64,000 bases of DNA from a virus, in the IMG/VR virus record IMGVR_UViG_3300038457_000086, positions 1 through 64,000 of that record; one strand, written 5' to 3'. A program made the translations under genes and the position numbers. Numbering within the stretch: position 1 is the first letter of the stretch; each line of letters opens with the position of its first letter. Shown here one piece after another: positions 11,768 through 26,661 of this stretch. The notes beneath the pieces were generated by a model. It made no database searches. It saw only the letters and a list, made by a program, of their open reading frames with translations, and was not told the origin of the DNA.

Positions 11768-12062
11768 CCACGTTGACCGCTACGTGCGCGAGCGCCGCGA
11801 ATGGCTTGACGCCTACAAGCGGGAGCGCGGGTGCCTGGACTGCGGCACGACCGAGGGACGACTGGACTTCGACCATCGGCCCAGCACCGACAAGCGGCTC
11901 AATCTCGGCCGTCCGCGAGCGTCTTGGGCAACGATCAAGGCTGAGGTTGCCAAGTGCGACGTGCGATGCGCGAGCTGCCACACGAAACGTCATGCTGCCG
12001 CCTCCCCGGGATTACGAAGTCCCTCAAGCTCAACCGTCCCGAGTGAGCCATCCCCGGCGTAG
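11700..12062 (+). CDS. HNH endonuclease (homing-type), possibly truncated
   Basis: Rightward, against its neighbours. The domain is clear: WLDAYKRERGCLDC, LDFDHRPSTDK and AEVAKCDVRCASCHTKRH, that is CxxC, a central DH and a final CxxCH, a free-standing HNH nuclease. The true start is uncertain: ATG at 11700 lies inside the opposite-strand transposase remnant, and GTG at 11784 is an alternative. The last 70 bases overlap the methyltransferase gene tail to tail, so the C-terminus may be recruited sequence. Such genes often mobilise by homing; activity here is unproven. Confidence 0.7.
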   Translation: MPPWCVPRSHRFKSGATRCACGIHVDRYVRERREWLDAYKRERGCLDCGTTEGRLDFDHRPSTDKRLNLGRPRASWATIKAEVAKCDVRCASCHTKRHAAASPGLRSPSSSTVPSEPSPA

Positions 12063-12607
12063 TCCCAGCCGAAACGCGCACGGCGAGCAAAACACTCAAG
12101 ACGCGGGGCCGGGCTCGCCTGCTCAACAACATCGAGGAAAGCGTCGGGCTTAGCCGAATGGGTCGGGCCGCCGCCGTGGATGTAGGGGCGCGACCACTCC
12201 CACCATGTGCGCTCGACCCGGGAGAGGGCCGGGAGCGTGCCTTTGCGGGCGAACAGCACGAACTCCGTCGTATTGACGAACGTCCCGCCGAGGCCGAGGC
12301 CCATCGGCTTCTTGCACCACGTCAGGAGCGTCGAAGGCCTGAACCCCCACGCTCGCGCCACGGCGTAAGCCTCGGGCAGATAGGCGTTGACGGCCCACAG
12401 GTACAGATGCGCGTCGTCAGCGGCTAGGTCACGAATCGAGAGCGCTTCGATCTCCGCGATCGACAGCCGCTCATACGGCACCACGGATCGCTTGCCAGCC
12501 GTTCCCTGCCCGCGTTCCCAGTAGCCGCCGCTCGACGCCGTGCGCGGGCCACTGTCCTTGATCGGCCACGGCGGATCGGCGACGATTGTGCGGTACTTGC
12601 CGCTCAC
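11990..12607 (-). CDS. MT-A70-type adenine-N6 DNA methyltransferase
   Basis: 205 residues. The catalytic DPPW motif is at residues 11-14 (TIVADPPWPI), followed by IRDLAADDAHLYLWAVNAYL and PSTLLTWCKKPMGLG, typical of the MT-A70 family (Dam-like, Ime4-like). It uses S-adenosylmethionine to methylate adenine. No restriction partner is nearby, so it is an orphan enzyme that probably protects phage DNA from host restriction. It sits one small gene away from a cytosine methyltransferase in the same operon. Confidence 0.9.
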   Translation of the reverse strand: MSGKYRTIVADPPWPIKDSGPRTASSGGYWERGQGTAGKRSVVPYERLSIAEIEALSIRDLAADDAHLYLWAVNAYLPEAYAVARAWGFRPSTLLTWCKKPMGLGLGGTFVNTTEFVLFARKGTLPALSRVERTWWEWSRPYIHGGGPTHSAKPDAFLDVVEQASPAPRLECFARRARFGWDYAGDGSLGTVELEGLRNPGEAAA

Positions 12608-12619
12608 GAGAGCACCTCG

Positions 12620-12925
12620 TCACCCATCCTTGTCCTCCTTACCCGAACCGAGCCGCTCCTGCTCGGTGTCCCGCACGCCAAGAATGGACATCGCAATCTC
12701 TCTAGCATCCTTCTTACGGCTAGGCCGAAGATCGTCCACGATGAGTTGCTGAATGCGCCAGATCTCGCCCTCGTCCGGTCGCTCGGTGTCCTCACGGCCG
12801 GCGCCGATCAGTTCATCAACGATGGCACCTTTCCGCGGCTCCTCACGGGCAGCGCGAGCAGCTTCTCTGATACCGAGCCGTGGACGGCCAGGCGTGTCGA
12901 TGCGCGGGTGAAGGCGAAACCTCAC
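12620..12925 (-). CDS. AAREEP/EDTERP mosaic-family protein (short member)
   Basis: 101 residues from a GTG that overlaps the upstream TGA (GTGA). It is assembled from the family linkers: AAREEP near residue 24, REDTERPDE near 45, and DTEQE near 85. Between them lies IWRIQQLIVDDLRPSRKKDA, then REIAMSILGVR. The same block with the same flanks appears in the protein encoded at 27429-28331, so the two share a cassette. Function unknown. Confidence 0.8.
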   Translation of the reverse strand: MRFRLHPRIDTPGRPRLGIREAARAAREEPRKGAIVDELIGAGREDTERPDEGEIWRIQQLIVDDLRPSRKKDAREIAMSILGVRDTEQERLGSGKEDKDG

Positions 12926-13581
12926 GCCGCGACCTTTGCTCGGGTCTCAGCCAGCAGGAAGCGGCCTATGTGTTCGGTGTATGCCGGCGGGATCGCCTCG
13001 CAGACCTCACGGACGTTCGACATCCAAGGCACCCCCATTTGCTCAGCCGCCGCTCGGACCCAGGCTTTCGAGTGGCGCCCGCCGTGGATCGACATGAACG
13101 GCGCCGCTGGGTTCGGTAGGTAGCCATTCCGAGCGCATCGCGCGACATGCCTTGTGTGCCTTGGCGTGTCGAGCTCGACACTGGACTCGAAGGCGCGATG
13201 TCGATAGATCCGGAGCCCGAACATCGGGCCACACAGCCGCACGGGATCGAGAAGCGGCGCCTGGGGGACGTTCTCGATCACATACGGCAGCCCGGTCTGT
13301 AGGAGTAGCGCGCGAACTGAGTCAACGAGGTCGGGGTACTCCTTGCCGTTGTAGGCATTCAGCGGCGAATAGGCCTGGCACGGCGGCGACGCGTGGATCG
13401 CGTCGAAGTCGCAGATATCCCATGGCCCGTAATCATTGGCCAACGCATCGGTCTGCCAGAACTCAAACGGGTAGTTCGGCTGGGGCTGGTTGTCCACGCC
13501 CACCACCTCGAAGCCTGCCCGGTGATAGCCCACCGCAGCGCCACCCGCGCCGCAGAAAAGATCGAGGAGGCGCGGTCTCAC
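12922..13581 (-). CDS. DNA (cytosine-5) methyltransferase
   Basis: 219 residues with the ordered C5-methylase motifs: LLDLFCGAGGAAVGYHRAGF (motif I, SAM binding) at residues 5-24, SPPCQAYS with the catalytic cysteine, and ENVPQA (motif VI). It is shorter than most 300-400-residue C5 enzymes, so the target-recognition region is small. It overlaps its neighbours by four bases on both sides. With the nearby MT-A70 enzyme it probably serves anti-restriction. Confidence 0.9.
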   Translation of the reverse strand: MRPRLLDLFCGAGGAAVGYHRAGFEVVGVDNQPQPNYPFEFWQTDALANDYGPWDICDFDAIHASPPCQAYSPLNAYNGKEYPDLVDSVRALLLQTGLPYVIENVPQAPLLDPVRLCGPMFGLRIYRHRAFESSVELDTPRHTRHVARCARNGYLPNPAAPFMSIHGGRHSKAWVRAAAEQMGVPWMSNVREVCEAIPPAYTEHIGRFLLAETRAKVAA

Positions 13582-13790
13582 GCCGCGCTCCGGTACCGCT
13601 CGCGCAGCTTGTCACTGACAACCTCGACCGGCTCATCATCAGCCCATCGTTCGGTCTCGCATAGCCCGCAAATCTCTAGGCCACCGCCAGCGGCGATCCA
13701 AGAGTGCCCGGCGAAGCCGCACTCAATCCCGGTCGGCTCGTCGCTCCACCCGTCCCGCTCCGCCTCGTCGATACTCCGTGGCGCGCTCAT
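13578..13790 (-). CDS. Small zinc-ribbon protein
   Basis: 70 residues starting MSAPRSIDEAERDGW. C-x-F-x-x-H-x-W (ECGFAGHSW) followed by ICGLC forms a likely zinc site. ATG at 13790 overlaps the upstream TGA and has AGGAG in reach, deciding it over an ATG 25 codons upstream. Unknown role. Confidence 0.75.
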   Translation of the reverse strand: MSAPRSIDEAERDGWSDEPTGIECGFAGHSWIAAGGGLEICGLCETERWADDEPVEVVSDKLRERYRSAA

Positions 13791-14872
13791 CGGGACTGCT
13801 CCTGCTCGGTGTCCTGCGCGCCAGCAAGCGCGTTTTCGAGGACCGCACGGGAGTTGTCTCCCCAATAGCTGCGACCGTTAGTCTCCACGCACCACCTGCC
13901 CACGTCGTGCGGGTTCGACCACACCGTGACGCGACCCAGCGACGCGAGTCGATCGAGAAGGCCGTCCGGTCGCTCGGTGTCAACCTCTCGGTTCAGCGAA
14001 GCTGCAACCGAAGGTTCCTTGGCCTCACGGGCGCTTAGTAGCCGAATTGACTGAATGCGACCGCGCCCTGTACCCGCCCATTTTAGCTCTCGATCAACGG
14101 CGTCTAGCTGGCGCTTGAGACTGGCACGCTCGCGGGCAATCCTCTGGGTCTCGGACAGCTCGCTGTATGGCCGCTTGTCCCGGTCGGGATCATAATCAGC
14201 CTCACGGACGGCGACGAAAACAACACCTACCGCAGCGCGAGCTTCGTTGTAGGCGAACTCTCTCTGCCGATCAGACAGGTCCTCCCATCCCCGGCGAGAA
14301 GTCGTCGGCCCCGCTTCCCACATTGCTCGTGCGGCACGCCAGACCAGCGCAGCGTCAGGCTCACCTAAGTCCTGCGCCTCCTCACGGGCAGCGAGCTTGG
14401 CGCGGAGTTCGTCACGCTCCTTTTCCACAGTGCTGCGCTCAGCAATCCAAGCCTCACGGGCGGCGACACAGAGGCTCTTCAGGTGATTCCGCGCCCAAGC
14501 CTTCGCGTCAGCGGGCTCGCCGGGGAGCTTAGGCAGACCCTCCAGGAGAGCATCGATCCTGAGAAACTGCCCGTGCCGTGTCGGGCCTTTCCCCGGGCGT
14601 TCGTCGAGAGGCTCGTCACAGATCGCCTTGACCGCGGTGAGTAGATCGGAGGCGCGGCCGAAGAGATCGTGCTCTTCGGCTAGATGCTCCGTGATTCCCA
14701 TCAGAATACTCGATGGCGGCTCCTCACGGACAGCGAGAGCGGCCCGGTAGTAATCGCGAGCCGCCATCCAACCCTTGTAATAAGCGCTGTGCGCGATGGC
14801 TCCCCCGAAGGCACTAATCGGTGGGCGATCTTTCTCCAGCGCCTCGCGCTCTTGACCGTCGAGATCAGACAT
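13787..14872 (-). CDS. AAREEP/DTERP mosaic-family protein (long member)
   Basis: 361 residues opening with the family start MSDLDGQEREALEKDRP, then RDYYRAALAVREEPP. The body contains further linkers: KLAAREEAQ, SAREAKEP, VDTERPDG and a terminal AQDTEQEQ. Between linkers are unrelated helical blocks, one with ERSTVEKERDELRAKLA (coiled coil) and one ending in WCVETNGRSYWGDN. It has the richest set of linkers in the operon. No catalytic motif recognised. Confidence 0.8.
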   Translation of the reverse strand: MSDLDGQEREALEKDRPPISAFGGAIAHSAYYKGWMAARDYYRAALAVREEPPSSILMGITEHLAEEHDLFGRASDLLTAVKAICDEPLDERPGKGPTRHGQFLRIDALLEGLPKLPGEPADAKAWARNHLKSLCVAAREAWIAERSTVEKERDELRAKLAAREEAQDLGEPDAALVWRAARAMWEAGPTTSRRGWEDLSDRQREFAYNEARAAVGVVFVAVREADYDPDRDKRPYSELSETQRIARERASLKRQLDAVDRELKWAGTGRGRIQSIRLLSAREAKEPSVAASLNREVDTERPDGLLDRLASLGRVTVWSNPHDVGRWCVETNGRSYWGDNSRAVLENALAGAQDTEQEQSR

Positions 14873-15122
14873 CGGCCAGCATCTCCTCTATCGAAGGCTG
14901 CTGAATCACGCAGACCCACTCGCGGTGCTTGTAAGCCAACTCCCAAGCCGCGTCGGGACCATTATCAAAGTACAGAACAAGCCCATCCGTGCCGTACTGC
15001 TTGCGGCCGATAACCGTGCGCCAACAGCCTGGGCTCGGAGGATCGGTCAAAACCTTGTCGCCTTCGCGGACGTACGCCGCTTGCATTTTGACCTCATGTC
15101 CTTGATCTTTGAGATCAGTCAT
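14865..15122 (-). CDS. Hypothetical small beta-rich protein
   Basis: 85 residues: MTDLKDQGHEVKMQAAYVRE, then GDKVLTDP, WRTVIGRKQY and GLVLYFDNG suggest a small SH3-like barrel. It overlaps both neighbours by eight bases, so it is embedded in the operon. No family recognised. Confidence 0.7.
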   Translation of the reverse strand: MTDLKDQGHEVKMQAAYVREGDKVLTDPPSPGCWRTVIGRKQYGTDGLVLYFDNGPDAAWELAYKHREWVCVIQQPSIEEMLADV

Positions 15123-15423
15123 CGCTCAGGCTCCTCTCACCACAACACACCCTCACCAACAAGACACGCTGACGGTCAGTAAGCGAACACACCTCGCGCC
15201 GCTCACCGATCCGCAACGTCCGGAGCGTCTTCGACACCCGCAGCTGACCCCACCGGCGCTGACACATCAACAAATCCCCAACACACAACGTCTGGCAGCA
15301 CGAGTGGTCCATCGCCGCGGCCAAACTCATCCGGCCCATCGCGACATCACGCTTCACCCGAGCGCGCTCCAAACGCACCACGTTCGCTCTCTCGAGCGCA
15401 TCCATGTACTGCGGCTGGCTCAT
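15115..15423 (-). CDS. Mycobacterial-IHF-like DNA-binding protein
   Basis: 102 residues. ANVVRLERARVKRDVAMGRM, then LCVGDLLMCQRRWGQLRVSK and SLTDRQRVLLV, reproduce the helical layout of actinobacterial integration-host-factor-like proteins carried by phages. These bind and bend DNA in replication, recombination and packaging. The three extra cysteines (SCCQTLC) are unusual. It is one of the best host-taxon clues in the window. Confidence 0.75.
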   Translation of the reverse strand: MSQPQYMDALERANVVRLERARVKRDVAMGRMSLAAAMDHSCCQTLCVGDLLMCQRRWGQLRVSKTLRTLRIGERREVCSLTDRQRVLLVRVCCGERSLSDD

Positions 15424-16172
15424 GCGGCAACAGCCTCCGCGACGAGATCGGCCGCTGTTAGGAGTTCGATGAGCTTGTCCGCCGACGCCTTGTTAAACGC
15501 AGCCCGCGCAGCCCGCGCATCCCGCGCAGCCCACGCAGCCCGCGCATCCCGCGCATCCCGCGCAGCCCACGCAGCCCGCGCAGCCCACGCAGCCCGCGCA
15601 GCCCGCGCAGCCCGCGCATCCCGCGCAGCCCGCGCATCCCACGCAGCCCGCGCATCCCACGCAGCCCACGCAGCCCACGCAGCCCACGCAAGCTTCTCCA
15701 CCTCCTCGTCGCTAAGGGGGTTGCCCTCCACGTCGCGGGTATACCCGTCGGCCACGCGCCGGCAGATCGCCTTCACGTCCTCCCCCTCGGCGACGTTCAC
15801 CAGGCCCCACTCCGGGTCGACCATCAGCCAGGCCGCGAACTGTGGCCACACCTTCGACAGGTCCGCACCGGGCTCGATCGCGCCCATGAACCGCTCCGGC
15901 CACGGGATCGCCAGCGGGTCAGGGAACGACTCGAAGATCCCGTCCTCCAAGTAGGCGAGCTGGGCTGGTATCCCGAACTCGCTCTCGTAGCGCATATGGC
16001 CCCCGTTAAGGTCTTCCAGAACGCAACCCACCGCGCAGTACGTGGGCTTCTCGCCCGCTCGTACATAGGCGCCCTTCGCGATCTCATCCAGCAGGCGGTG
16101 CGCCTGGATCTTCCCCAGCACCTTGCTCTTCAACTCCGGTTTGCCGTGGTAGGCGATCAGCGTGTCGGACAT
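15420..16172 (-). CDS. Protein with AAW/DAR tripeptide repeat tract
   Basis: 250 residues starting [20 protein letters not shown]. The N-terminal 160 residues look globular ([54 protein letters not shown]). The next 60 or so residues are a pure alternation of WAA, RAA and DAR tripeptides encoded by 21 tandem 9-bp units, and a short helix closes the protein. The repeat should form a long Ala-rich helix whose length can change by slippage. Function unknown; position next to the DnaA-like gene hints at a DNA-replication or host-takeover role. Confidence 0.75.
15499..15687. repeat. Minisatellite of 21 tandem 9-bp units
   Basis: 189 bases made of exactly 21 units such as GCAGCCCGC, GCATCCCGC and GCAGCCCAC. 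The length is a multiple of three, so unit gain or loss keeps the frame of the surrounding gene. There are no spacers, which rules out a CRISPR array. Confidence 0.9.
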
Positions 16173-16639
16173 GATTCTCTCCCTTGGTTGATGTCACAAA
16201 TCACGAACCTGACCGGAGTCTGCGCAGCCTTCTCCCACAGGCGTCCAAAGCGCACCGCGATCCAGTCCCGGCTATTCGCGGGGCACGCCAGCATCCACAC
16301 GCCATCGACGAAGCGGTGAGCGTGCACATCGTCGAGCCAGATATCGAAGACGAGCCCGTCGACCATCCCGCGCATCTCCCGACGCAGCGCCTCCCAGGCT
16401 GCCAGCAGCTCTGAGGACGGACTAGTGTTGTGCGGGTCAAGGAGCGCCCGGGAACGCTCCGCCCGGCCGTACTCGACGACAGCTTGCTCCGCTGCCAGGT
16501 GCTTAGCGTGGGCTCGCTCCGCGTCTTGGCGAGCTTGACGCGCTTCAGCAGTAAGGCGACGTAGCACTCGATCTTTCCCCAGCTGCTGGGCTGGAGCAGC
16601 GTCGCTACGGCCCACTGTTGCCACGGCATTAGCGCTCAT
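16157..16639 (-). CDS. DnaA domain-I-like protein
   Basis: 160 residues. After a charged helical N-terminus, AWEALRREMRGMVDG, FDIWLDDVHAHRFVDGVWML and ACPANSRDWIAVRFGRLWE follow the pattern of DnaA domain I (a tryptophan-anchored helix, a beta hairpin, then the ANxFxxDWI-type helix). The AAA+ and DNA-binding domains of DnaA are absent. In DnaA, domain I recruits helicase and modulators, so this protein could hijack host initiation factors for the phage origin. AGGGGATC precedes ATG. Confidence 0.65.
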   Translation of the reverse strand: MSANAVATVGRSDAAPAQQLGKDRVLRRLTAEARQARQDAERAHAKHLAAEQAVVEYGRAERSRALLDPHNTSPSSELLAAWEALRREMRGMVDGLVFDIWLDDVHAHRFVDGVWMLACPANSRDWIAVRFGRLWEKAAQTPVRFVICDINQGRESCPTR

Positions 16640-16754
16640 AGTGATCCCCTAGCGCTTGTCTCGGGATAAGCCCCAGCCACCAATACAACACAGGGGTTTG
16701 TCCCTACTCTTTTCTTCTTCTTAACTTCGGGGGTGTGATTTCGACGTGACAAGC
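16640..16754. other. AT-richer intergenic gap with a purine tract
   Basis: One of the few gaps in the early operon. On the minus strand it holds AAGTTAAGAAGAAGAAAAGA followed by GACAAACCCC and GGGGCTTATCC, a possible weak stem. No convincing promoter or terminator was seen. Its base composition and its place between two replication-linked genes make it a candidate origin or regulatory region. Confidence 0.3.
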
Positions 16755-17159
16755 TCACGATGTCACGCCCCTATGTCCCGCGTGACCTTCGCGTGACCTG
16801 CGCTTACGGTCACGCCACGCCTCACGTGTCTCGGACGGCTTGGGGTCTTTCTGTACGTCGTGCCAGTCGTGGACGTACTCAACGCCCATCTCGGCGTCCA
16901 TCTCCAGCAGCTCAAACTGACGCATCTTCTTAACCGTCGAGCGCGCGATGGCCAGCGTGACGCCGGCTTGCGCCGCGTAATCCTCCTCGGTCGCCTTCTC
17001 GTTGTTAGCGATGAAGAGATATCCCCGCACGGGAGACTCTGCGGCGGTTGCCCACACGCCGAACACCGCGCACCATTTCTCGGCATGGCTGAGGCGCCGG
17101 AACTTTCGATCAGTGCCGAGTTTCGTGTAGACGAGGAAGAGGTCATAACCCTTGGCCAT
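16755..17159 (-). CDS. Replisome-organizer-like winged-helix protein
   Basis: 134 residues from ATG at 17159. YDLFLVYTKLGTDRKFRRLS, then EKWCAVFGVWATAAESPVRG and IARSTVKKMRQFELLEM, fit the N-terminal winged helix of phage replisome organizers (DnaD/gp39-like), which bind the origin and recruit helicase. The C-terminus is basic. Its ATG overlaps the stop of a tiny leader frame (TAATG), which explains the lack of its own ribosome site. A longer GTG-started form would overlap the upstream gene. Confidence 0.65.
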   Translation of the reverse strand: MAKGYDLFLVYTKLGTDRKFRRLSHAEKWCAVFGVWATAAESPVRGYLFIANNEKATEEDYAAQAGVTLAIARSTVKKMRQFELLEMDAEMGVEYVHDWHDVQKDPKPSETREAWRDRKRRSREGHAGHRGVTS

Positions 17160-17215
17160 TACGCTGTCGTGTTCATGGTCCCCGGCATCCAGCCGCGGTT
17201 TGGCGCGAGCATCAT
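17159..17215 (-). CDS. Possible 18-residue leader peptide
   Basis: MMLAPNRGWMPGTMNTTA has AGGAG well placed before its tandem ATGs, which overlap the upstream stop; its own TAA overlaps the ATG of the replisome-organizer gene. It most likely serves translational coupling. Confidence 0.4.
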   Translation of the reverse strand: MMLAPNRGWMPGTMNTTA

Positions 17216-17406
17216 GCTGCGCTCCTGCGAGAAGATTCACTAGCGGTCTCGGCGGCTTCCTTGGCGGCCTTGGCGCGTTCACGTGCGCGTCGTTTGGCTC
17301 GTGCCCGGATTTCCTTCTGGAGCGTGCGACTGAAATACGGCTGCCCTCCGACGATCCTGTACTGGTTTGCCCGGTTTCCCGCTGAGCGGTCGATATCAGG
17401 TGCCAC
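17212..17406 (-). CDS. Small basic protein
   Basis: 64 residues from a GTG overlapping the upstream TAG. VGGQPYFSRTLQKEIRARAK begins a highly basic helix ending in SSRRSAA. It may bind nucleic acid. No family recognised. Confidence 0.65.
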   Translation of the reverse strand: MAPDIDRSAGNRANQYRIVGGQPYFSRTLQKEIRARAKRRARERAKAAKEAAETASESSRRSAA

Positions 17407-17774
17407 TACGCCACCAGCCGTTCATAGTCGTAGGGAGACATAGGCTTCCGCTCAACCGTGTCGAGAGGCTCGGGGTCCACAGGAACGCCAGCGCCTGTCT
17501 GGTGAGCCTCTCCGGCGGACAGGACTAGCTCGCCTTTCCTGGGCTCACCGTCGCTCGCTGACGCTCCTGCCGACCCCGAATCTGCAAGGAGTGTGTACCT
17601 CCAGCCTCCGGCGCTGAGACGCTGCTTAGCGATCCGATACCCGGCCTTCCTAAGCTCCTCTATACGTGCGCCGTACCTGACGATTCCCGCCTCGACAAAC
17701 TGCCCGTTAGTCACACCACGGCGGTCTACACGGGCCTGGTCGAGCATCCGGAGCACGTCCTGTTTCTGGGTCAT
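17406..17774 (-). CDS. Winged-helix DNA-binding protein
   Basis: 122 residues starting MTQKQDVLRMLDQARVDRRG. TNGQFVEAGIVRYGARIEEL, then RKAGYRIAKQRLSAGGWRYT, is a common phage winged helix (DNA-reading helix, then beta wing). The C-terminal third is disordered and acidic with PMSPYDYERL at the end. The ATG at 17774 overlaps the upstream stop by four bases. A regulator or replication accessory. Confidence 0.75.
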   Translation of the reverse strand: MTQKQDVLRMLDQARVDRRGVTNGQFVEAGIVRYGARIEELRKAGYRIAKQRLSAGGWRYTLLADSGSAGASASDGEPRKGELVLSAGEAHQTGAGVPVDPEPLDTVERKPMSPYDYERLVA

Positions 17775-18295
17775 GCCGCCTCCGCCATTGGCCGGTATTC
17801 CCGCTCGAGCCACGGCATCAGATCGAGCCATTCAGCGAGCCTCACCGTTTCAGACGGCAAGTCCTCGAAGGGAATGCGGAGCTTGCGCGAACGGTCAAGC
17901 ATCCCGTGGTGACCGTCGCAGCCACAGAGGCCACCGCACCCCGGCACCCATGTCGCCGGCAGTTCGCACAGCTCCTGCAATGACCGTGGGAACGGCCCGC
18001 AGCCATACAGCCCCCACGTCTCTGCTAGCTCGGCGCGCCTCGGCCATATCTCACGACGCAGCACTTGTTTGCTTATCAGGTGGCAGCGCACGAGCTGCCC
18101 GTCGCACGGTACGCCCGGCGCGAACCGTGCGAGGAAACACACGGCGGTCACGCCTGGCAGATCACACGCATAGGTGTATTTGGCTGCGCGGGCACACTTA
18201 CGACGACGCAAGCCCTTCACGGTCTTCTCTCGCTTCACCGGCCTCTCGACTGGCAGAACGGTCGCCTTGGCCTCACTGGACGGTAAAGGGCTCAT
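17771..18295 (-). CDS. HNH-like zinc nuclease domain protein
   Basis: 174 residues. A CDGQLVRCHLISKQVLRREI stretch supplies a CH pair, and GCGGLCGCDGHHGMLDRSRK supplies a cysteine cluster and HH, the arrangement of compact HNH/NinG-type phage nucleases that work with recombination systems. It neighbours the RuvC-like resolvase, overlapping its gene by four bases. Substrate unknown; DNA-branch processing is inferred. Confidence 0.65.
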   Translation of the reverse strand: MSPLPSSEAKATVLPVERPVKREKTVKGLRRRKCARAAKYTYACDLPGVTAVCFLARFAPGVPCDGQLVRCHLISKQVLRREIWPRRAELAETWGLYGCGPFPRSLQELCELPATWVPGCGGLCGCDGHHGMLDRSRKLRIPFEDLPSETVRLAEWLDLMPWLEREYRPMAEAA

Positions 18296-18783
18296 AGTTC
18301 GTTCCCCTCAGCCACGGTGACGGCGACAGCTAGCGCAGCCCAACAGTCGCCACTCATGCCGTACAGCGGCCCCGGTGTGGCCTTTTTGCCGATCGCCTTG
18401 TCCTTGCCTGGGCCGTAGCGGTCGATCAGCGCCTGGCGGACGTTCGGGTCTTTCGCCCGCGTGCTGCCGCACAGGTGTAGCTTCACATTCTTGCGATAGA
18501 TGCACGTGTGCTCCGGTCGTGCGAACTTCGCCTGCCCCATCCTCCACCGCTCAATGAAACGACCGGCCCAGACGCACGTGTCGAACACTGTGGCGCCGAC
18601 AGCCATGCCGTAGCTGGCCACCATCTCAATCGCCAGCAAGTTCTCCGACCTCGACGACATCTCGATCATCGTCAGCGCAGTCACGTTGTCGACCTTTTCC
18701 CACTCGACCGGCAGACGACTCTCGGTGTCGTAGATCAGCAACGCCGATTCCTCGTTGCCGGGATCGATCGCCAACAGCCTCAC
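18292..18783 (-). CDS. RuvC-like Holliday junction resolvase
   Basis: 163 residues with the RNase-H-fold acidic residues in order: D7 in LLAIDPGN, E53 in LAIEMVASYG and D146 in SGDCWAALAVAV. KNVKLHLCGSTRAKDPNVRQ is the conserved basic segment of phage RuvC-type enzymes. It would cut branched DNA made by the RecT pathway before packaging. Overlaps on both sides place it inside the early operon. Confidence 0.85.
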   Translation of the reverse strand: MRLLAIDPGNEESALLIYDTESRLPVEWEKVDNVTALTMIEMSSRSENLLAIEMVASYGMAVGATVFDTCVWAGRFIERWRMGQAKFARPEHTCIYRKNVKLHLCGSTRAKDPNVRQALIDRYGPGKDKAIGKKATPGPLYGMSGDCWAALAVAVTVAEGNEL

Positions 18784-18944
18784 GCCGCTCGCCTCCGCTC
18801 ATCCCGAGCAAGGAACTCCTCACGAAGCCGGCGGTGTGTCTCCCGGATCTCTTCCCTCTCGCGATCCTCCTCTAGCCGTTTCGCCTGGGATACGGAGATG
18901 CCCTTGCGGGGCTTGTGGATCTCCCTGCCCTTCCACGCGCTCAC
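18780..18944 (-). CDS. Small charged helical protein
   Basis: 54 residues from GTG at 18944, chosen because GAGGTG precedes it and it overlaps the upstream TGA. After SAWKGREIHKPRKGIS the rest is a charged helix, RLEEDREREEIRETHRRLRE. Function unknown. Confidence 0.65.
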   Translation of the reverse strand: MSAWKGREIHKPRKGISVSQAKRLEEDREREEIRETHRRLREEFLARDERRRAA

Positions 18945-19330
18945 GAAGACACCTCGGCGCGGGAAATCGGCGCGTAAATCGCTGGACACGTCGGACCGTG
19001 CATCCCGCAGAAGGAAAGTCCTGGGCGTGTCCAGTCTTCAGCGGCGCACGCGGAGCAAGGACAATGGCGTCCGTGGGTGAGACGCGGCTCCTCACGGGCA
19101 GCGAGACGCGCCTCCGCCTGTTCAGCGCGAACCTTCCACTGAAGCCATGCGACACCGCACTCCGGACATGCGTCGTCGTCCGCATGGGACGGCTCCTCAG
19201 GGGCAGCGAGAGCGGCCCCGAAGCCATCGGCAAACTGCTCACTCACGAAGCCCACGATTTTCATTTCACCGCGAGCCTCGCAGCGCTTACGCCACGCCCC
19301 CTCCAGCGCCTCGCGCTCTTGACCGCCCAT
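18941..19330 (-). CDS. Mosaic-family protein with two cysteine clusters
   Basis: 129 residues starting MGGQEREALEGAWRKRCEA, the family opening. It carries a degraded linker ALAAPEEPS, a CPECGVAWLQW zinc knuckle, then RLAAREEPR and a cysteine-rich C-terminus (HCPCSACAAEDW, FCGMHGPTC). It shows how unrelated zinc blocks have been spliced between linkers. Confidence 0.75.
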   Translation of the reverse strand: MGGQEREALEGAWRKRCEARGEMKIVGFVSEQFADGFGAALAAPEEPSHADDDACPECGVAWLQWKVRAEQAEARLAAREEPRLTHGRHCPCSACAAEDWTRPGLSFCGMHGPTCPAIYAPISRAEVSS

Positions 19331-19566
19331 CAGACTTCGCCTACTTCCTCAATGCGAGCCTCGATGCACTCGATCGTGTTGGGATCGCGCACACGACGAC
19401 CACGGCCGATGATTTTCAGGTCAGACGGGCTTCCGGCGAAGTCCGGGACACCACCACTCAGTCGCTTAGCACGTGCCTCCTTAGCCGTGCGCGCTTTGAC
19501 CCAAAACGGGCGAGGCAGTATCTCGACTTGCTCAAACTCATACCAGTACTCGCGCTCTTGACCCAT
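19330..19566 (-). CDS. Hypothetical protein with QERE start
   Basis: 78 residues: MGQEREYWYEFEQVEILPRP, then FWVKARTAKEARAKRLSGG and IIGRGRRVRDPNTIECIEAR. The compact alpha/beta pattern resembles other small proteins here that begin with a short beta strand and an AKEAR-type helix. TGATG overlap with the upstream mini-gene sets the start. Confidence 0.7.
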   Translation of the reverse strand: MGQEREYWYEFEQVEILPRPFWVKARTAKEARAKRLSGGVPDFAGSPSDLKIIGRGRRVRDPNTIECIEARIEEVGEV

Positions 19567-19643
19567 CAGGCACCCCGACCTTGCGCACGGAGCAGCTTGC
19601 GTCGGTGGCAGCGGATGGCGCCGACGATGCACTCACTAGTCAC
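19566..19643 (-). CDS. 25-residue Cys/His mini-protein
   Basis: VTSECIVGAIRCHRRKLL, then RAQGRGA. The GTG overlaps the upstream TGA (GTGA), AGGGG sits upstream, and its own TGA overlaps the downstream ATG. Perfect coupling on both sides supports a real gene despite its size. Confidence 0.5.
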   Translation of the reverse strand: MTSECIVGAIRCHRRKLLRAQGRGA

Positions 19644-19957
19644 GATCGCCCCTGTGCCTTCAGAATTGCCATACCGATCGCAGCACGCGTGTCCAAGACC
19701 TTGACAACACCGCGCAAACCCTCCCAACGGCCCTCCTCCTCCACGCCCATCAGAGCGGTCTCCTGGTCGGCCTTCGCGGACCGTTCCGCGACCGTGCCCT
19801 CCGCTTTCATGAACTCTTCGGCGCGGGTCTTCTCCTTCAAGCGCCGGGCGAGGAAGTGAGCTTGCGCGGCCTCCTCGTACTCATTCTGGTGCACGGCCAG
19901 CGCCTGGTCGATTGCCTCAAGGCGTTCTTGTACCGCTGCGGGATGAGAGAGGGTCAC
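19640..19957 (-). CDS. Hypothetical helical protein of the recombination cluster
   Basis: 105 residues from a GTG overlapping the upstream TGA. AVQERLEAIDQALAVHQNEY and EEAAQAHFLARRLKEKTRAE form a long helical hairpin, ending GLRGVVKVLDTRAAIGMAIL. Similar helical proteins often lie beside phage recombinase genes. No enzyme motif seen. Confidence 0.7.
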   Translation of the reverse strand: MTLSHPAAVQERLEAIDQALAVHQNEYEEAAQAHFLARRLKEKTRAEEFMKAEGTVAERSAKADQETALMGVEEEGRWEGLRGVVKVLDTRAAIGMAILKAQGRS

Positions 19958-20049
19958 GACTTGCCCTTCCCGTCGCAGGCCGGGCACTCTTTGATGTGCT
20001 CGCCGTGCTTGACCCAGCCACCCCCGTTGCACTTTCCGCAGACGCTCAT
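19954..20049 (-). CDS. 31-residue DnaJ-like zinc knuckle
   Basis: MSVCGKCNGGGWVKHGEHIK, then ECPACDGKGKS: two CxxCxGxG-type motifs, i.e. a single DnaJ-style zinc centre. ATGA overlap with the nuclease gene upstream and GTGA with the gene downstream argue it is real. Such mini-knuckles usually mediate protein contacts. Confidence 0.65.
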   Translation of the reverse strand: MSVCGKCNGGGWVKHGEHIKECPACDGKGKS

Positions 20050-20900
20050 GCTGCCGCCTTCCTCGCCGCTTTGCGCTGGACCGCCATGTCGGCGTTGATC
20101 CGTTTCCGTGACTGGTGGACGGCCAAGAGGCCGAGGAAGTCGAGCTCGGTGGCCTCGCAATGCACGAGCTCAACCTCGCCGAGGTCGCTGATGCCGACGA
20201 TGATGATGTCGTCGACTGGCTCGATCTGGGACGGCTCAAGCGCCATCGCGTAGCCGCGGGTCTGATAGTGCGCCTGCTCGTAAATCCTTCCTTTGCCGGT
20301 CTTGTAGTCGATCAGGGTGCGACGGTTGTTGATGCGGCAGATCAGGTCAGGGCGTCCCGCGTAACGGTGCGCGGGTTCGCAGACGATCTTCTCGGCCTCT
20401 TCGGGCTCCGGATCCAGTAGTAGCCACGCCCGCGCAGCGCCCTTGACCCATGCGCGCCACTCCTCCGGATAGTCGGCCAGCTTCGGTGCCTCACCGGTGG
20501 TCGCGAGCTTCTCGAACGCGGAGTGGATCGCCCTCCCACGCTCAGCCCCCTCATCCCGCGCACCTTCGGCGCCCATCTTCTCCCGGCGCACCAGGTTGAC
20601 CGCTTGCTCCGGGCTCACGATGATCACGTCGTCGAGGACCAGGCGCGCCAGGCCTTCGATGCCCTTCTGCTCTGCCCACGGGATCAGGGCCGGCTTCTCC
20701 AGCGTGCCCGTGATCGATGACACGGCCGTGAAGTCGTCGCCGTTCAGGGCGTAGCGGCGCCGGTCCTTCTTCGCCGGCTCCCCCTTCTTCGTGAGCCATT
20801 CGCCCGGGCCCAGATCTTCAAAACGGAGCGTGCCAAGACCCTCGATCTCGCGCTCGACGATCTCCCCGTCGACGACTAGGTCTATCGCCGTGGCGCTCAT
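20046..20900 (-). CDS. PD-(D/E)XK exonuclease (RecB/Cas4-like)
   Basis: 284 residues. The nuclease residues are visible in order: GRAIH (H126), CEPAHRYAGRPDLI (E175, D185), LIDYKTGK (D198, K200) and EQAHYQTRGYAM (the QxxxY motif near 209-216). It should degrade one strand of double-stranded DNA ends to load the RecT annealing protein encoded two genes upstream. The coiled-coil protein and a small gene lie between them. Confidence 0.88.
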   Translation of the reverse strand: MSATAIDLVVDGEIVEREIEGLGTLRFEDLGPGEWLTKKGEPAKKDRRRYALNGDDFTAVSSITGTLEKPALIPWAEQKGIEGLARLVLDDVIIVSPEQAVNLVRREKMGAEGARDEGAERGRAIHSAFEKLATTGEAPKLADYPEEWRAWVKGAARAWLLLDPEPEEAEKIVCEPAHRYAGRPDLICRINNRRTLIDYKTGKGRIYEQAHYQTRGYAMALEPSQIEPVDDIIIVGISDLGEVELVHCEATELDFLGLLAVHQSRKRINADMAVQRKAARKAAA

Positions 20901-21145
20901 GCCCTCGCCTCGAAAGCCGCGAGGTGATGGGAGTTGACGCTCGCCAGGTCACGCTCCAGGACCTCGACGTTCTCCCACTCCCGGAGCGGGTGATTCTCGG
21001 TCCAGCGCCGGAGCGCGACCCAGCAGTAGTCGGCCGATCCGCACGCGATCAGATCGAGAGATGGGCCGTGTCCGCGCAGCTCCTCGGCCGGATGCTCGCC
21101 GTCGGGGTCGCCGCTGAACATGATGACGCCGTAGTGGGTGTTCAT
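20897..21145 (-). CDS. Hypothetical protein of the recombination cluster
   Basis: 82 residues starting MNTHYGVIMFSGDPDGEHPA. DLIACGSADYCWVALRRWTE and LREWENVEVLERDLASVNSH give a small alpha/beta protein. ATG at 21145 overlaps the upstream stop by four bases. No family recognised. Confidence 0.65.
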   Translation of the reverse strand: MNTHYGVIMFSGDPDGEHPAEELRGHGPSLDLIACGSADYCWVALRRWTENHPLREWENVEVLERDLASVNSHHLAAFEARA

Positions 21146-22023
21146 CGGGTCCTCACCGCCAGTCCGTCGACTTGCTCGATCGTGACGCCGGGGATCTCCC
21201 GCACACCGTCTTTGACGGCCGCGTTGATCAGGCGCTCGTCGACGATCAGGTACTTGCGCGGCACGAGGTCGGGGTCCACAACGGTGGCCTTCCACCGTTT
21301 CGTGCCCGAGGTCCCTGCAAGCTTCGTCCTGCCCACAGTGGTCGCCGGGGTGCTCTTCGCTGCGACCTCGGCCTGTGTTGCCTCGTCAGCCTCCCGGCGT
21401 GCCCGATCAGCACGCTCCTGGGCTTCCCGGCCGTCCTGACGCGCCTGTGCCTCTGCGGCGAGCAGCCGATACGCCTCGGAGCGTTCATCCGCGTTGCCGA
21501 GAGCGACTTCGAGGGCCTCGTCGCCCATGGCGGCGATCTCGCGGGCGCGCTCGTTCGCGGCCTCCCGCAGCTCGCGCTGACGTGCCTGCTCAGCCTCGCG
21601 AGCTTGACGCTCGATCCTCGCCGCCTCCTCCGCTCTCGCGCGGCGCTCAGCCTCGGCCTTCTCCTCCGCAGCACGGCGCTCGGCGTCGATGCGTGCCTGC
21701 TCCGCGGCGACACGCTCGGCCTCCTCGCGTTGGAACGCGATGACCTTGCCGCGCACGAGCTGGTCGGCCTCATCGAGCGGCGCTGCGGCTGATTTGAACC
21801 GGGCGTTGATCGCTTTGACATGGCTGTTCAGCGGGTCGACAAGGAACTTGCGTGCCGTCTCCCCTTTGCGCTTCGCCGTCGCGATCTCGCCGAGGAACTC
21901 CGTCGCGGTCCGTGCCTGCTCGGGTGTGTTGACCTCAAGGGCCTGCGCACGCTGAACGACCGCGGAGACCTCCTCGGTGACCACGGCGACGGCCTCCTGA
22001 TCGATGGTGGCCAGATCGCTCAT
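21142..22023 (-). CDS. Long coiled-coil protein associated with RecT
   Basis: 293 residues. N-terminal FLGEIATAKRKGETARKFLV and a long Glu/Arg/Ala coiled coil (residues about 95-215) precede a conserved C-terminal domain, RWKATVVDPDLVPRKYLIVD, then LINAAVKDGVREIPGVTIEQ. This architecture is frequent beside phage RecT/exonuclease pairs. It may tether recombination factors or protect ends; the activity is not established. Confidence 0.75.
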   Translation of the reverse strand: MSDLATIDQEAVAVVTEEVSAVVQRAQALEVNTPEQARTATEFLGEIATAKRKGETARKFLVDPLNSHVKAINARFKSAAAPLDEADQLVRGKVIAFQREEAERVAAEQARIDAERRAAEEKAEAERRARAEEAARIERQAREAEQARQRELREAANERAREIAAMGDEALEVALGNADERSEAYRLLAAEAQARQDGREAQERADRARREADEATQAEVAAKSTPATTVGRTKLAGTSGTKRWKATVVDPDLVPRKYLIVDERLINAAVKDGVREIPGVTIEQVDGLAVRTR

Positions 22024-22910
22024 GACGCCGCACCGGTCTTCGCAAGGTGCGCTCCGAGGGCCTGGCGGAACTCGTCAAGCAGTGCGGGCGTGAGATCCTC
22101 TGTGCAGTCCACGCCGACCGAGGACAGGAGCATCGTCAGTGTGTTGTCGCTGATGCCCGCAGCGTTGAGCGCTTCGGTGAGCGCCGTGAGTTCCTCCTCG
22201 CTGATGCGCTCCGGCTCGTCTGTCGCTGCGCGGGTCTCAACGACGTCGGCCTCAACGTACTCCGTACCGTTCGATGCCGGCTCGGCGATCTCAACAGCGG
22301 TGGCTTGGACGATCTCGCCCTCGGCGTACACGCGGATGCCGTTCATCACATCCGGGCAGTACCAGGCGACCCCGTTGCTCATCGCCCGGGCGAAGAACAT
22401 GTTGCGGGGGTACTTGACGTAGTTCGACGGAGCGCCGCTTTTTGACGGTTTCGTCAGCAATGCAGCTTCGGCGTCGGCTTGAGTGAAGTCGGAGGTCCCG
22501 AACGCATCGGGCCACGGGAGCCACTGGCCGTGCTCATCCTTTCCGGGTGCGGTGCCGCGCCCAAACTCGATCGAGCATCCGTCAGCGTCGAGCTCCAGGA
22601 CTCGGTAGTCGTACTTCCCCGAGGCCTTGACCTTCGACGCCTGCAGGTTTGCCGACATCTCGGGTTTCCCCTCGATGATGTGGATGTCCGTCATCGCCTG
22701 CGTGGCGCTGAGCCCGAGGTCCCGGCCGAAGATCAGCTTCGCGAACGCCTGATCGGCTTGGCGAGCATCCTTGAACATCCCGGACCTGGCGAGCCCGTTG
22801 CCGAGCCTGTACAGCATGTCTATCTCGCCGTTGGTGATCGGAGCGTCGATCTCCGTGGAATGCCGGTCGTCGAGCTCGGCTGGCTGTACGTCTATCGTCT
22901 GATCCATCAC
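22020..22910 (-). CDS. recT: RecT-family single-strand annealing protein
   Basis: 296 residues. AFAKLIFGRDLGLSATQAMT, IIEGKPEMSANLQASKVKAS and YPRNMFFARAMSNGVAWYCP are diagnostic of the RecT/Redbeta superfamily. The C-terminal 80 residues are acidic and flexible, as is usual for partner binding. Together with the exonuclease at 20046-20900 it forms the phage recombination system, well suited to joining very short homologies such as those repeated in this operon. Confidence 0.9.
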   Translation of the reverse strand: MMDQTIDVQPAELDDRHSTEIDAPITNGEIDMLYRLGNGLARSGMFKDARQADQAFAKLIFGRDLGLSATQAMTDIHIIEGKPEMSANLQASKVKASGKYDYRVLELDADGCSIEFGRGTAPGKDEHGQWLPWPDAFGTSDFTQADAEAALLTKPSKSGAPSNYVKYPRNMFFARAMSNGVAWYCPDVMNGIRVYAEGEIVQATAVEIAEPASNGTEYVEADVVETRAATDEPERISEEELTALTEALNAAGISDNTLTMLLSSVGVDCTEDLTPALLDEFRQALGAHLAKTGAAS

Positions 22911-23137
22911 GAACCTCGATTCGTGGTCGCGCGCCCGGGTGTTCCAGCACCGCGGGCGCTATTTGTGTGTGAAAAGCCCGTTGCGCCGGACATGACGCTC
23001 ACCAAATGTCGGTTCACGCGCACATCGCTCTGCGCCTTACGCTCCTGCCGTTCCCCGAGCCGCTCACGGTCGAAGTCCTCGATCGTCGGCTGTTTGTTGC
23101 GCTTGCGAAGCCACTCGCTGAGTTTCTGCCCGTTCAT
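22907..23137 (-). CDS. Hypothetical protein
   Basis: 76 residues: MNGQKLSEWLRKRNKQPTIE, then DFDRERLGERQERKAQSDVR, followed by a flexible Ser/Gly/Thr tail. The N-terminal helix is amphipathic. TGATG overlap sets ATG at 23137. Unknown role before recT. Confidence 0.6.
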   Translation of the reverse strand: MNGQKLSEWLRKRNKQPTIEDFDRERLGERQERKAQSDVRVNRHLVSVMSGATGFSHTNSARGAGTPGRATTNRGS

Positions 23138-24021
23138 CACTTGGGCTTCCGCTCAGCGTCTCGCACCATCTCACGGCAAGCGTCAGCGGCGTCCTCGTTG
23201 ATCGGAGGATCGAGATCGGGCACCGGAAATACCTCGACCATCACCGCTGGTCCCTCCCCAGCCTTGTTGCTGAAGATCCGAGCGTGGAGCTTCGCCGCCC
23301 TTGCCACACCCTCCTCATCGCTGTGCGCGCCGTCTATGACATTCAGCCCCATGCCTGGCGGCTCACGACGCGCTAGATACAGCTCCCTCTCAGGCCCGTT
23401 GGCACGCTCGGTGACATCGACACACTCACCTATCGGAAGCGCCGGACCGTCCTCGATCTCAAAGAGTAGGTGCTTGCCGTGAAGCGTTTGCTTGAGAGTC
23501 CATCGCCTATGCCCCTCCGGTCGCTCGGTGTCCTCACGGGCAGCGAGGTCGTCACACACGGCGTCGATGATCTGCCCGTAGAGGTCAGCGTGTGCTTCCT
23601 CTGGCGACGGCTCACCGAAGGTGCCTGTCAAGACCTCCTCGGCCGCATGGAATGCTTGATCGCTCTGCAAGTCGTCGCGCGAGAATCGCGCGGGTAGGAT
23701 GAACTCCTGCGGCTCCTCACGGGCAGCGAGGGCGGCCTCTGAGCAGGCGCCGTCGTGACCCTTAGGCAACTTGCAGGTAGGGTGGTGCGAGCCCTCGCCG
23801 CCGAAGCCGATCATGATGCGGCCACACCGATCGGCGTCTCCCGACGTGACCTCGCGGTCTTCGTTCACCCCCGGTGGCTCCTCACGGGCAGCGAGCGCGG
23901 CCTCGTACTTCTTGCGCCCGAGCCATCCACGCTCGAAACCTTTGATCCACTGAATCGGCAGCATCCGGCCATCACCAAAACGGGCCATCTCTGCCTCCAG
24001 CGCCTCGCGCTCTTGGGTCAT
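23137..24021 (-). CDS. AAREEP/EDTERP mosaic-family protein
   Basis: 294 residues from MTQEREALEAEMARFGDGRM. Linkers are KYEAALAAREEPP, ALAAREEPQ, LAAREDTERPE and LARREPPG. The segment between the second and third linker (FILPARFSRDDLQSDQAFHA, then LYGQIIDAVCDDL) is shared with the protein encoded at 25055-25564, including a 68-bp DNA identity. Another block has GSHHPTCKLPKGHDGACS, a zinc-like cluster. The opening (helix, then IKGFERGWLGRKKYEAALAA) recalls the short N-terminal modules of mosaic Ea22-type phage proteins; that comparison is inference. Confidence 0.8.
   Translation of the reverse strand: MTQEREALEAEMARFGDGRMLPIQWIKGFERGWLGRKKYEAALAAREEPPGVNEDREVTSGDADRCGRIMIGFGGEGSHHPTCKLPKGHDGACSEAALAAREEPQEFILPARFSRDDLQSDQAFHAAEEVLTGTFGEPSPEEAHADLYGQIIDAVCDDLAAREDTERPEGHRRWTLKQTLHGKHLLFEIEDGPALPIGECVDVTERANGPERELYLARREPPGMGLNVIDGAHSDEEGVARAAKLHARIFSNKAGEGPAVMVEVFPVPDLDPPINEDAADACREMVRDAERKPK
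23672..23739. repeat. 68-bp exact repeat, copy 1
   Basis: Identical to 25374-25441, inside a roughly 190-bp region of high similarity. It covers the AAREEP linker and the start of the shared cassette in two mosaic-family genes. Confidence 0.85.
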
Positions 24022-24025
24022 GCGA

Positions 24026-24280
24026 TCACCAGCACTCGCCGGATGTCGGGTGATGTTCGTCCAGCCCGGCGAGGCGAGCCTTGTGCTCCAGGATCGCTTG
24101 CACCTCCAGGGGGTCGGCATCGGGAGTGATTGCGACGGTTCCGTCCGGTTTGACGCGGAACGCCCCCCGGTAGTTATCAGACGACCCCATAGGCTCAATG
24201 TAGGTGACGTCGGGACGTTGAACAACGGGAACCGTTGTAAGGTCTTTCCAGATGGGGTATCCACTTAGATGACCCTTCAT
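24026..24280 (-). CDS. Hypothetical protein beginning with the 24-bp repeat
   Basis: 84 residues: MKGHLSGYPIWKDLTTVPVV, then RPDVTYIEPMGSSDNYRGAF and an alpha-helical end (LEVQAILEHKARLAGL). Codons 3-10 lie in the 24-bp sequence duplicated at 11510-11533. Overlap of four bases with the upstream gene confirms the ATG. Unknown function. Confidence 0.7.
   Translation of the reverse strand: MKGHLSGYPIWKDLTTVPVVQRPDVTYIEPMGSSDNYRGAFRVKPDGTVAITPDADPLEVQAILEHKARLAGLDEHHPTSGECW
24251..24274. repeat. 24-bp exact direct repeat, copy 2
   Basis: The intact-gene copy of the repeat at 11510-11533, coding GHLSGYPI at the N-terminus of the 84-residue protein. Confidence 0.8.
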
Positions 24281-24792
24281 AGCGCCCGCGTGTGCAGCGC
24301 ACCGTCAGCGCCGCAGTAGACCTCTTTGGGACCGTCACCCTCAGGCCGCGCACGATGTGAGCGCAGCTCGGCGAGCAGGTCCTGCTCAATCCGCTTTATC
24401 GCCTCCGCAAAGCACTCCCACGCGGTCGACGATACACAACCGTGTGAACCGACCATGAGCGGCGCTGAATGATCGTCTGGACCGCATAGCGTCCAACCCT
24501 TATCGCCGAACCTCTCGACGATATATCCAGCGTTCTTTACTCGTTGCTTGTCTGCCAGCGATACGGACGTGTGCGTAGATGGGGCGCAGTGGCGCTCGTA
24601 GATCAGCGCCTCGATCTCATCCAGCGTCAGCGTCACAGTCCGCTCAGAGGGGTCTGAGCGTTGATCGTGTTCGAGCATGATGGTCGCGAGAGCCGTCAGC
24701 GTCAAATCGCGGTCGAAGTCCTCCGGTACGCGCTGCCCAACGTGAAGGCTCGCGGCCTTCACTAGGTGCTGCCGCGCCTCGTCGCGGTCCAT
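24277..24792 (-). CDS. Hypothetical protein
   Basis: 171 residues: MDRDEARQHLVKAASLHVGQ, then TLTALATIMLEHDQRSDPSE, TLDEIEALIYERHC and LADKQRVKNAGYIVERFGDK. It looks like a mixed alpha/beta protein; the C-terminal half has CVSSTAWECFAEAIKRIEQD. TGATG overlap sets the ATG. It lacks the AAREEP linkers of its neighbours. Confidence 0.65.
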   Translation of the reverse strand: MDRDEARQHLVKAASLHVGQRVPEDFDRDLTLTALATIMLEHDQRSDPSERTVTLTLDEIEALIYERHCAPSTHTSVSLADKQRVKNAGYIVERFGDKGWTLCGPDDHSAPLMVGSHGCVSSTAWECFAEAIKRIEQDLLAELRSHRARPEGDGPKEVYCGADGALHTRAL

Positions 24793-25058
24793 CACTCACT
24801 CCCCTTTCCTGCTGGCTCAGGCCCCGCGTACCAACCTTCGACCTTGCGACGAACGCACCCACGGAACCGGTGGTAGTCGATCGTCTCCACATAGTCCGTG
24901 AGTTCGTCGCCGTTGCTTACAGCGTCCGAGACGTAGCGGTCGAGCCGGTCGAAGTCTTCCTCGGGCGTCCGGCCGTTTCCCTCGGCGTTGGCGACGAGCG
25001 CCTTGCTGGCCCGAACGGCCGCAAGAAGGATCGCGTCCAGCCGCTTGCTCTTGCTCAT
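24792..25058 (-). CDS. Small helical hypothetical protein
   Basis: 88 residues: MSKSKRLDAILLAAVRASKA, then FDRLDRYVSDAVSNGDELTD and YHRFRGCVRRKVEGWY. Mostly helical. Four-base overlaps on the upstream side and TGATG downstream place it firmly in the operon. Confidence 0.65.
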   Translation of the reverse strand: MSKSKRLDAILLAAVRASKALVANAEGNGRTPEEDFDRLDRYVSDAVSNGDELTDYVETIDYHRFRGCVRRKVEGWYAGPEPAGKGSE

Positions 25059-25564: not shown

Positions 25565-25647
25565 CACAGTCCCCCATCCCAGATGAGGAAGGCGATGAAC
25601 AGAGCCTCCAAGACGGCGACGATGCCGAGGAGCATTTCGCCGTTCAC
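25564..25647 (-). CDS. 27-residue single-pass membrane protein
   Basis: VNGEMLLGIVAVLEALFIAF, then LIWDGGL: one hydrophobic helix of about 18 residues. GTGA overlap with the upstream stop and TGATG with the downstream start bracket it precisely. A small inner-membrane effector or regulator is plausible. Confidence 0.6.
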   Translation of the reverse strand: MNGEMLLGIVAVLEALFIAFLIWDGGL

Positions 25648-26498: not shown

Positions 26499-26661
26499 CG
26501 ACAGCCCTTTCCACTCCAGTGATTGCTATGACATCCGTGTCCCACACATCGCGGCCCCCGTGGTCCTGGGCATTGGCCTTGATTTCAGCGTCGCTTTTGG
26601 ATTTCGCCTCGATGTCGTAGGTGGCCTGCGTGCTCTCAACCACATGCACTCGATATCTCAT
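26491..26661 (-). CDS. 56-residue hypothetical protein
   Basis: MRYRVHVVESTQATYDIEAK, then SKSDAEIKANAQDHGGRDVW: beta strand, helix, strand (VIAITGVERAV), a common small phage fold that resembles the double-psi or ferredoxin-like helpers in phage operons. ATGA overlap upstream and an overlap downstream support the frame. Confidence 0.65.
   Translation of the reverse strand: MRYRVHVVESTQATYDIEAKSKSDAEIKANAQDHGGRDVWDTDVIAITGVERAVDD

Follow-up and report, generated by a model that had tools for sequence, protein, structure and literature searches.

A predicted DnaA domain I encoded beside a winged-helix replisome organiser in a soil bacteriophage: a candidate two-gene replication initiator

How can a phage without a detectable helicase begin to copy its genome? 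The question is raised by two small neighbouring genes in a soil bacteriophage record of 67,096 bases, of which 64,000 make up the stretch analysed here (the window). All genes recognised in the window lie on the minus strand, and an early block includes genes for a RecT-like protein, an exonuclease, a Holliday junction resolvase and the two proteins of interest, P0002 and P0001. A first-pass annotation, made from the sequence alone, had read the pair as a mimic of DnaA domain I next to a replisome organiser. Both open reading frames are found on the minus strand where that reading placed them; its outer limit at 17159 is an internal ATG (M42) of the P0002 frame, which gives 175 residues from a GTG start or 134 from this ATG.

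16157–16639, minus strand: P0001, 160 residues, with an N-terminal helical region (residues about 20–65, by eye) and a C-terminal DnaA domain I (profiles, AF2 model)
16193–16414, minus strand: predicted DnaA domain I of P0001, residues about 76–149 (profile matches; AF2, Z 11.2 to 4tps_B)
16640–16754, no strand assigned: candidate unwinding element, an AT-richer gap of 51% GC with a minus-strand purine tract (composition)
16745–16814, no strand assigned: CGTGAC in five copies on both strands; candidate iterons (hexamer cluster test)
16755–17282, minus strand: P0002, probable winged-helix replisome organiser (Phage_rep_org_N, E 5.5e-5; phrog_4880, E 0.051)
18292–18783, minus strand: Holliday junction resolvase, context (phrog_1770, E 6e-16)
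20046–20900, minus strand: exonuclease, context (phrog_298, E 1.4e-26)
22020–22910, minus strand: RecT-like annealing protein, context (phrog_4171, E 1.4e-9)

The gene block and the completeness of the record

The end of P0001 overlaps the start of the gene at 15420–16172, its ATG is preceded by AGGGGA, and its base composition per codon position (0.73, 0.51 and 0.68) is coding-like, if less marked than that of the exonuclease gene. The product of 15420–16172 matches phrog_3416, of unknown function (E 0.0004). Within this gene, positions 15458–15700 contain about 20 copies of a 9-nt unit resembling GCAGCCCGC, and the array makes the product a protein of AAW/AAR/DAR repeats, encoded immediately after P0001. 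The early block also holds two DNA methyltransferase genes (11990–12607 and 12922–13581; phrog_359, E 6e-39, and phrog_363, E 2e-39). The peptides A[AV]REEP and REDTER recur at nine and six sites, respectively, inside otherwise different reading frames (12779–28882, minus strand); the hosts are nine ORFs between 12620 and 29052, the underlying DNA is nearly identical (GCTGCCCGTGAGGA..), and the pattern looks like mosaic genes with a common short junction sequence.

A helicase gene could in principle lie in a part of the genome missing from the record, but this objection falls because an independent contig (L017) joins the record ends. Bases 202–4765 of L017 correspond to the end of the record (99.93% identity) and bases 4667–7181 to its start (100%); the overlaps are short, and a 618-base stretch at the end of the record is absent from L017. 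A second contig (L018, 86–97% identical) also bridges the ends, with a differing stretch of its own. The record thus seems to be essentially complete, and no helicase seems to be hidden in a missing part. The ends of the record (window positions 1–99 and the final 800 bases) partly overlap, with a variable spot between the terminase and portal genes.

A DnaB_C search over the 67 kb gave no match. The Walker A pattern [GA]xxxxGK[ST], applied to all ORFs of at least 60 residues, found two motifs, both spurious as judged by eye: the first belongs to a sheath-like protein, the second to a short ORF rich in cysteine. The terminase has a variant Walker A that this pattern misses, so that odd motifs could escape it. 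Among 27 window ORFs scanned with Pfam and/or PHROGs, a set that covers few structural genes, none matched a helicase, primase, polymerase or loader, apart from a stray match to an archaeal polymerase domain (E 0.097). As judged by these searches, the phage is without a detectable helicase, which agrees with the first-pass annotation.

P0001, P0002 and the sequence between them

The match of P0001 to the Pfam DnaA_N family is below the Pfam cut-off both for the whole protein (E 0.071) and for the last 84 residues (E 0.016). Because this match alone is weak, we built our own profile, for which 15 domain sequences were taken from DnaA proteins and from initiators of plasmids and phages, and ranked all 998 stop-to-stop frames of at least 40 residues in the whole record. 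P0001 came first (E 1.4e-7; runner-up frame, E 3.3), and a 79-residue stretch of it scored 29.5 bits, compared with 12.9 bits for the best of 20,000 shuffles. One profile member, a protein from Leptolinea, had been found with P0001 itself, and the profile was therefore rebuilt without it; P0001 again ranked first of 998 (E 3.2e-6), as it did with profiles made from seven DnaA proteins only (E 6.1e-6) or from seven fused plasmid and phage initiators only (E 3.1e-4). In every version the real stretch outscored all 20,000 shuffles. A PF11638 search of the whole record returned no match and missed P0001 itself; the search is therefore too insensitive, and its zeros in other records carry little weight.

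From the single sequence, AF2 produced an unusable model (pLDDT 43.6). With an alignment of four sequences, three of them domain I relatives, the model reached a pLDDT of 82.1 and a pTM of 0.69, a fold result that is conditioned on the relatives supplied. The elements follow the order alpha-alpha-beta-beta-alpha-beta, and the closest solved structure is Bacillus subtilis DnaA domain I (4tps_B; Z 11.2, 75 residues, 1.5 Å), followed by Helicobacter pylori domain I–II (Z 9.9). In a library of predicted viral structures, the initiator of Brevibacillus phage SecTim467 ranks first, and an uncultured-phage protein whose name refers to the DnaA N-terminal domain ranks second. By profile and predicted fold, residues 76–149, approximately, are a DnaA domain I, as the first-pass annotation had proposed. 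P0001 as such is not a DnaA protein: it has 160 residues and neither the AAA+ nor the DNA-binding domain, and a Walker A motif search of it found none.

The residues known to make contacts in domain I are only partly present. According to the excerpted text of PMC5448010, E21 and F46 of Escherichia coli domain I make the contact with DnaB, a face that uses W6 serves its dimerisation, and F46 is absent from H. pylori domain I as well. Excerpts of PMC10201431 describe T26, W27 and F49 of B. subtilis domain I as required for binding the N-terminal domain of DnaD, which contains a winged helix, and DnaD as being recruited to oriC by domain I. In the profile alignment, P0001 keeps tryptophans at the W6 (W82) and W25/W27 (W101) positions, has V97 at E. 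coli E21 and I100 at B. subtilis T26, and lacks F46/F49. Of the helicase and loader contacts (E21 and F46; T26, W27 and F49), only the tryptophan is thus kept. Since H. pylori domain I also lacks F46, this loss does not exclude P0001 from domain I membership, but with E21, T26 and F46/F49 changed the recruiting face is altered, which would imply either a different host partner or a shifted role.

The neighbouring protein, P0002, matches Phage_rep_org_N with 23.6 bits, passing the family cut-off (23.3) by 0.3 bits, and the phrog_4880 replisome organiser weakly. The first of these matches covers the model through its final position and stops 10 residues short of the P0002 C-terminus, leaving no room for a further partner domain. 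Other members of the family carry a C-terminal partner domain of their own. The winged-helix initiator proposed by the first-pass annotation is thereby borne out at the cut-off, and P0002 is likely the origin-binding protein of the phage.

Between the two genes lie 115 bp with a GC content as low as that of only 0.9% of all 115-bp windows of the record. The five CGTGAC copies fall within 70 bp that overlap the edge of this gap as well as the P0002 gene at its 3′ end, and form the sole non-tandem site in the record with at least five copies of any hexamer per 80 bp; the other such site, the 9-nt array in gene 15420–16172, was disregarded because it is a tandem repeat. In 60 dinucleotide-shuffled versions of the record, such clusters numbered 0.08 on average, and shuffling the local 315 bp 2000 times produced none. 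We regard the cluster as candidate iterons and the gap as a candidate origin or unwinding element, a suggestion of the first-pass annotation that the cluster strengthens. Three observations count against an initiator acting here: the CGTGAC copies are irregular in strand and spacing, unlike regular iterons; the record contains no exact DnaA box; and the GC skew, proposed earlier as a check, does not change sign at the locus and lends no support.

Relatives of the two genes and fused counterparts

No relatives of P0001 or P0002 were found in viral contigs or phage records. In six related virus records each was found in 0/6, by a search whose empty result proves nothing, and PF11638 likewise in 0/6, by a search that is also blind to P0001. 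With the P0001 domain as query (E ≤ 10), tblastn returned six phage records, none with more than 80% of the query covered, and three plasmid records, including Leptolinea (E 1, 94% covered); the matching region of Gordonia phage Suerte was inspected and gave no lead. An alignment of P0001 with the Leptolinea protein yielded 42 candidate stretches in viral contigs, none of which was confirmed; among genome contigs it recovered nothing but the Leptolinea plasmid. A relative carrying P0001 and P0002 together was not found in the collections searched, which also counts against a shared role as initiator.

The Leptolinea protein (DnaA_N, E 8e-11) was the starting point for finding relatives in which the two kinds of domain are fused. 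Proteins with HTH_36 and DnaA_N occur on plasmids of Thermobacillus and Paenibacillus, in both cases adjoining genes annotated as replication initiation proteins. In PLSDB, 42 records match the Paenibacillus protein, 30 of them over at least 80% of its length; the shorter matches include dnaA genes. The same combination is found in the replication initiation protein of Brevibacillus phage Jenst (347 residues) and on a further virus contig (L027), and on a Chloroflexota contig (L066) a Phage_rep_O-like domain (E 5.2e-6, 27.3 bits, cut-off 28.7) is joined to DnaA_N. An alignment of the fused kind met only two loci among viral contigs, one being Jenst itself, and at the sensitivity of that search the domain therefore seems rare in viruses. 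The best phage matches of the terminase in the window are Jenst-type phages, at 31–32% identity. P0001 and P0002 are separate ORFs, with no single protein carrying both domains, and P0001 is for that reason not one of the fused initiators; as far as the sequences tell, the window holds a split form of the pairing of winged helix and DnaA_N, a pairing that is known, though little studied, in fused form.

A second split form was sought in Chloroflexota, where DnaA_N matches occur in at least 185 of 201 genomes, at least 31 of which have two or more. Eight loci (L030–L032 and L063–L067) gave no clear case: L030 is DnaA, L063 runs off the contig edge, L064 is a dnaA gene interrupted by masked bases, and L065 begins near a contig edge. 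For L005, L031 and L067 only DnaA_N is above the Pfam cut-off and the winged helix is assigned by eye, as it is for L032. L032 and L067, both from Chloroflexota, encode long proteins that start with DnaA_N, in ParA-containing loci resembling mobile elements. On a Leptolinea chromosome, L031:718–1722 encodes 334 residues with a C-terminal DnaA_N (E 2e-7) and adjoins an ORF that by eye resembles a single-strand-binding protein.

Two further leads were rejected. Four human-faecal “Bacteriophage sp.” records with DnaA_N (MT838018, MT835859, MT839132 and MT837670) contain full or near full-length dnaA with dnaN-like neighbours, and are therefore probably pieces of bacterial chromosomes. RepN of the pBS32/pLS32 type, which as a carrier of domain I would have explained DnaD at oriN, was discarded: replication initiator protein A of pBS32, taken as RepN from its annotation, scores 0.2 bits for domain I, and the best of 167 pBS32 ORFs of at least 60 residues, in two stretches covering 74,216 of 84,215 bases, scores 4.3 bits. 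Among literature titles and abstracts, in which few subscription journals are represented, none concerned a phage-borne free DnaA domain I or the fused initiators.

The exonuclease offers another view of the gene slot. Its alignment found nothing in genome contigs and the protein only two weak matches in 301 Chloroflexota genomes, and it is present at 49–57% identity in four contigs, in which the stretches examined contain no DnaA_N-like ORF (best E 0.49). Following an HNH-like gene, L002:11954–12487 encodes a helical start and then, at residues 48–150, a match (E 2.5e-4) to the C-terminal part of phrog_16167, a phage replication initiation family. Versions that are 30–33% identical and do not reach phrog_16167 are encoded at L003:13403–13858 and L004:12554–12997; all three proteins stand alone and begin with a helical part. 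These sequences suggest that the slot may be occupied by an unattached partner domain, and that one such domain may have replaced another.

Possible roles at the start of replication and comparison with known systems

We lean, by a narrow measure, towards reading P0002 and P0001 as the two halves of one split replication initiator, acting at the CGTGAC copies and the gap, with domain I attracting a host helicase or loader; our confidence is no higher because the recruiting face is altered. We infer that the winged helix of P0002 would bind the CGTGAC copies at the 3′ end of the P0002 gene, and that the adjoining AT-richer gap would open. P0001 would join P0002, perhaps by its N-terminal helical region or by a contact between domain I and the winged helix, and its domain I would attract the host replicative helicase or helicase loader, after which the host replisome would copy the phage. 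A direct contact of P0001 with P0002 is possible in light of the binding by B. subtilis domain I of the DnaD N-terminal domain with its winged helix. Should this hold, P0001 would work by analogy with the fused initiators, and the arrangement suggests a phage that hires the host unwinding machinery with a borrowed domain. Recruitment of the host helicase had been proposed by the first-pass annotation; the domain I, the organiser and the lack of a helicase all speak for it, and the loss of every contact residue but the tryptophan speaks against it.

The same residues allow another role, in which domain I would serve self-assembly or bridging of origin-bound P0002 and the helicase would arrive by a different route, such as recombination-dependent restart. 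Dimerisation of E. coli domain I through W6, as given in the excerpts of PMC5448010, fits with the retention of W82 and the loss of most of the DnaB/DnaD face, and the phage carries genes for an exonuclease, a RecT-like protein and a resolvase. This would leave P0002 without any other domain able to recruit a helicase, and a loader match was found in 0/27 of the window ORFs scanned, and we consider such a role unlikely.

If P0001 instead acted outside the phage initiator, as a decoy, the free domain I would titrate a host DnaA partner or cap DnaA domain I and so stop host initiation. The excerpted PMC5448010 describes YfdR, a prophage protein that acts on E. coli DnaA by way of domain I, and a domain standing alone could be a competitor for that surface. 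However, the fused versions in mobile elements place the domain within initiator proteins, which speaks for a component of an initiator and not for a decoy, and P0001 directly follows the organiser gene and the candidate origin. A decoy is therefore, in our judgement, quite unlikely, and the term mimic, while right as to the domain I identity, may be too narrow given the fused versions elsewhere.

It is more doubtful still that the two genes are chance neighbours, P0002 being a regulator, P0001 having an unrelated task and the hexamer cluster being an operator or accidental. The small margin by which P0002 clears its family cut-off and the failure to find a relative with the same gene pair would allow it, but the two genes share their operon order, fused counterparts exist elsewhere, and the cluster is absent from the local shuffles. 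It is highly improbable that P0001 is not a DnaA domain I but a helicase operator of the DciA (DUF721) type: DciA, which acts on the helicase, comes next among the replication proteins of the fold lists (8a3v, Z 7.0; 7ykm), in the company of unrelated folds, but the fold is nearer to domain I, the sequence profile match is to DnaA_N, and DUF721 is absent from the Pfam matches up to E 10, a list from which filters drop weak ones.

Beyond the split initiator at this locus, the fused and separate forms allow the tentative generalisation, which we would not yet back, that DnaA domain I is a portable recruiter which mobile elements add, by fusion or as a subunit of its own, to unrelated origin-binding winged helices, and that the initiator here has two subunits with domain I acting in trans, free of the ATPase and DNA-binding parts of DnaA. 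If true, the split initiator would explain how replication starts in a phage without a detectable helicase. A natural domain I apart from the rest of DnaA would also let its solo role and its host partner be tested, and the locus points to little-studied initiators of mobile elements that bear DnaA domain I.

Compared with bacterial DnaA, P0001 has the sequence and predicted fold of domain I in common but not the AAA+ ATPase and DnaA-box-binding domains, and domain I lies at its C-terminus. Initiator-like proteins of Bacillaceae and Paenibacillaceae plasmids, annotated as “DnaA N-terminal domain-containing protein”, likewise combine a winged helix with DnaA domain I, but in the HTH_36 and DnaA_N proteins the two are fused, whereas here they are encoded by two genes with the candidate origin in between. 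The FDTW and PN-F motifs kept by these plasmid proteins are partly lost in P0001. The initiator of phage Jenst is also a phage-borne combination of DnaA_N and a winged helix, but it is a fused protein and matches a different winged-helix family. For the lambda O-like initiators (Phage_rep_O), L066 links such a domain to DnaA_N, although in fused form and in Chloroflexota. Relative to the replisome organisers of the Phage_rep_org_N family, P0002 matches their N-terminal domain but stops after it, and a separate gene for a predicted DnaA domain I follows.
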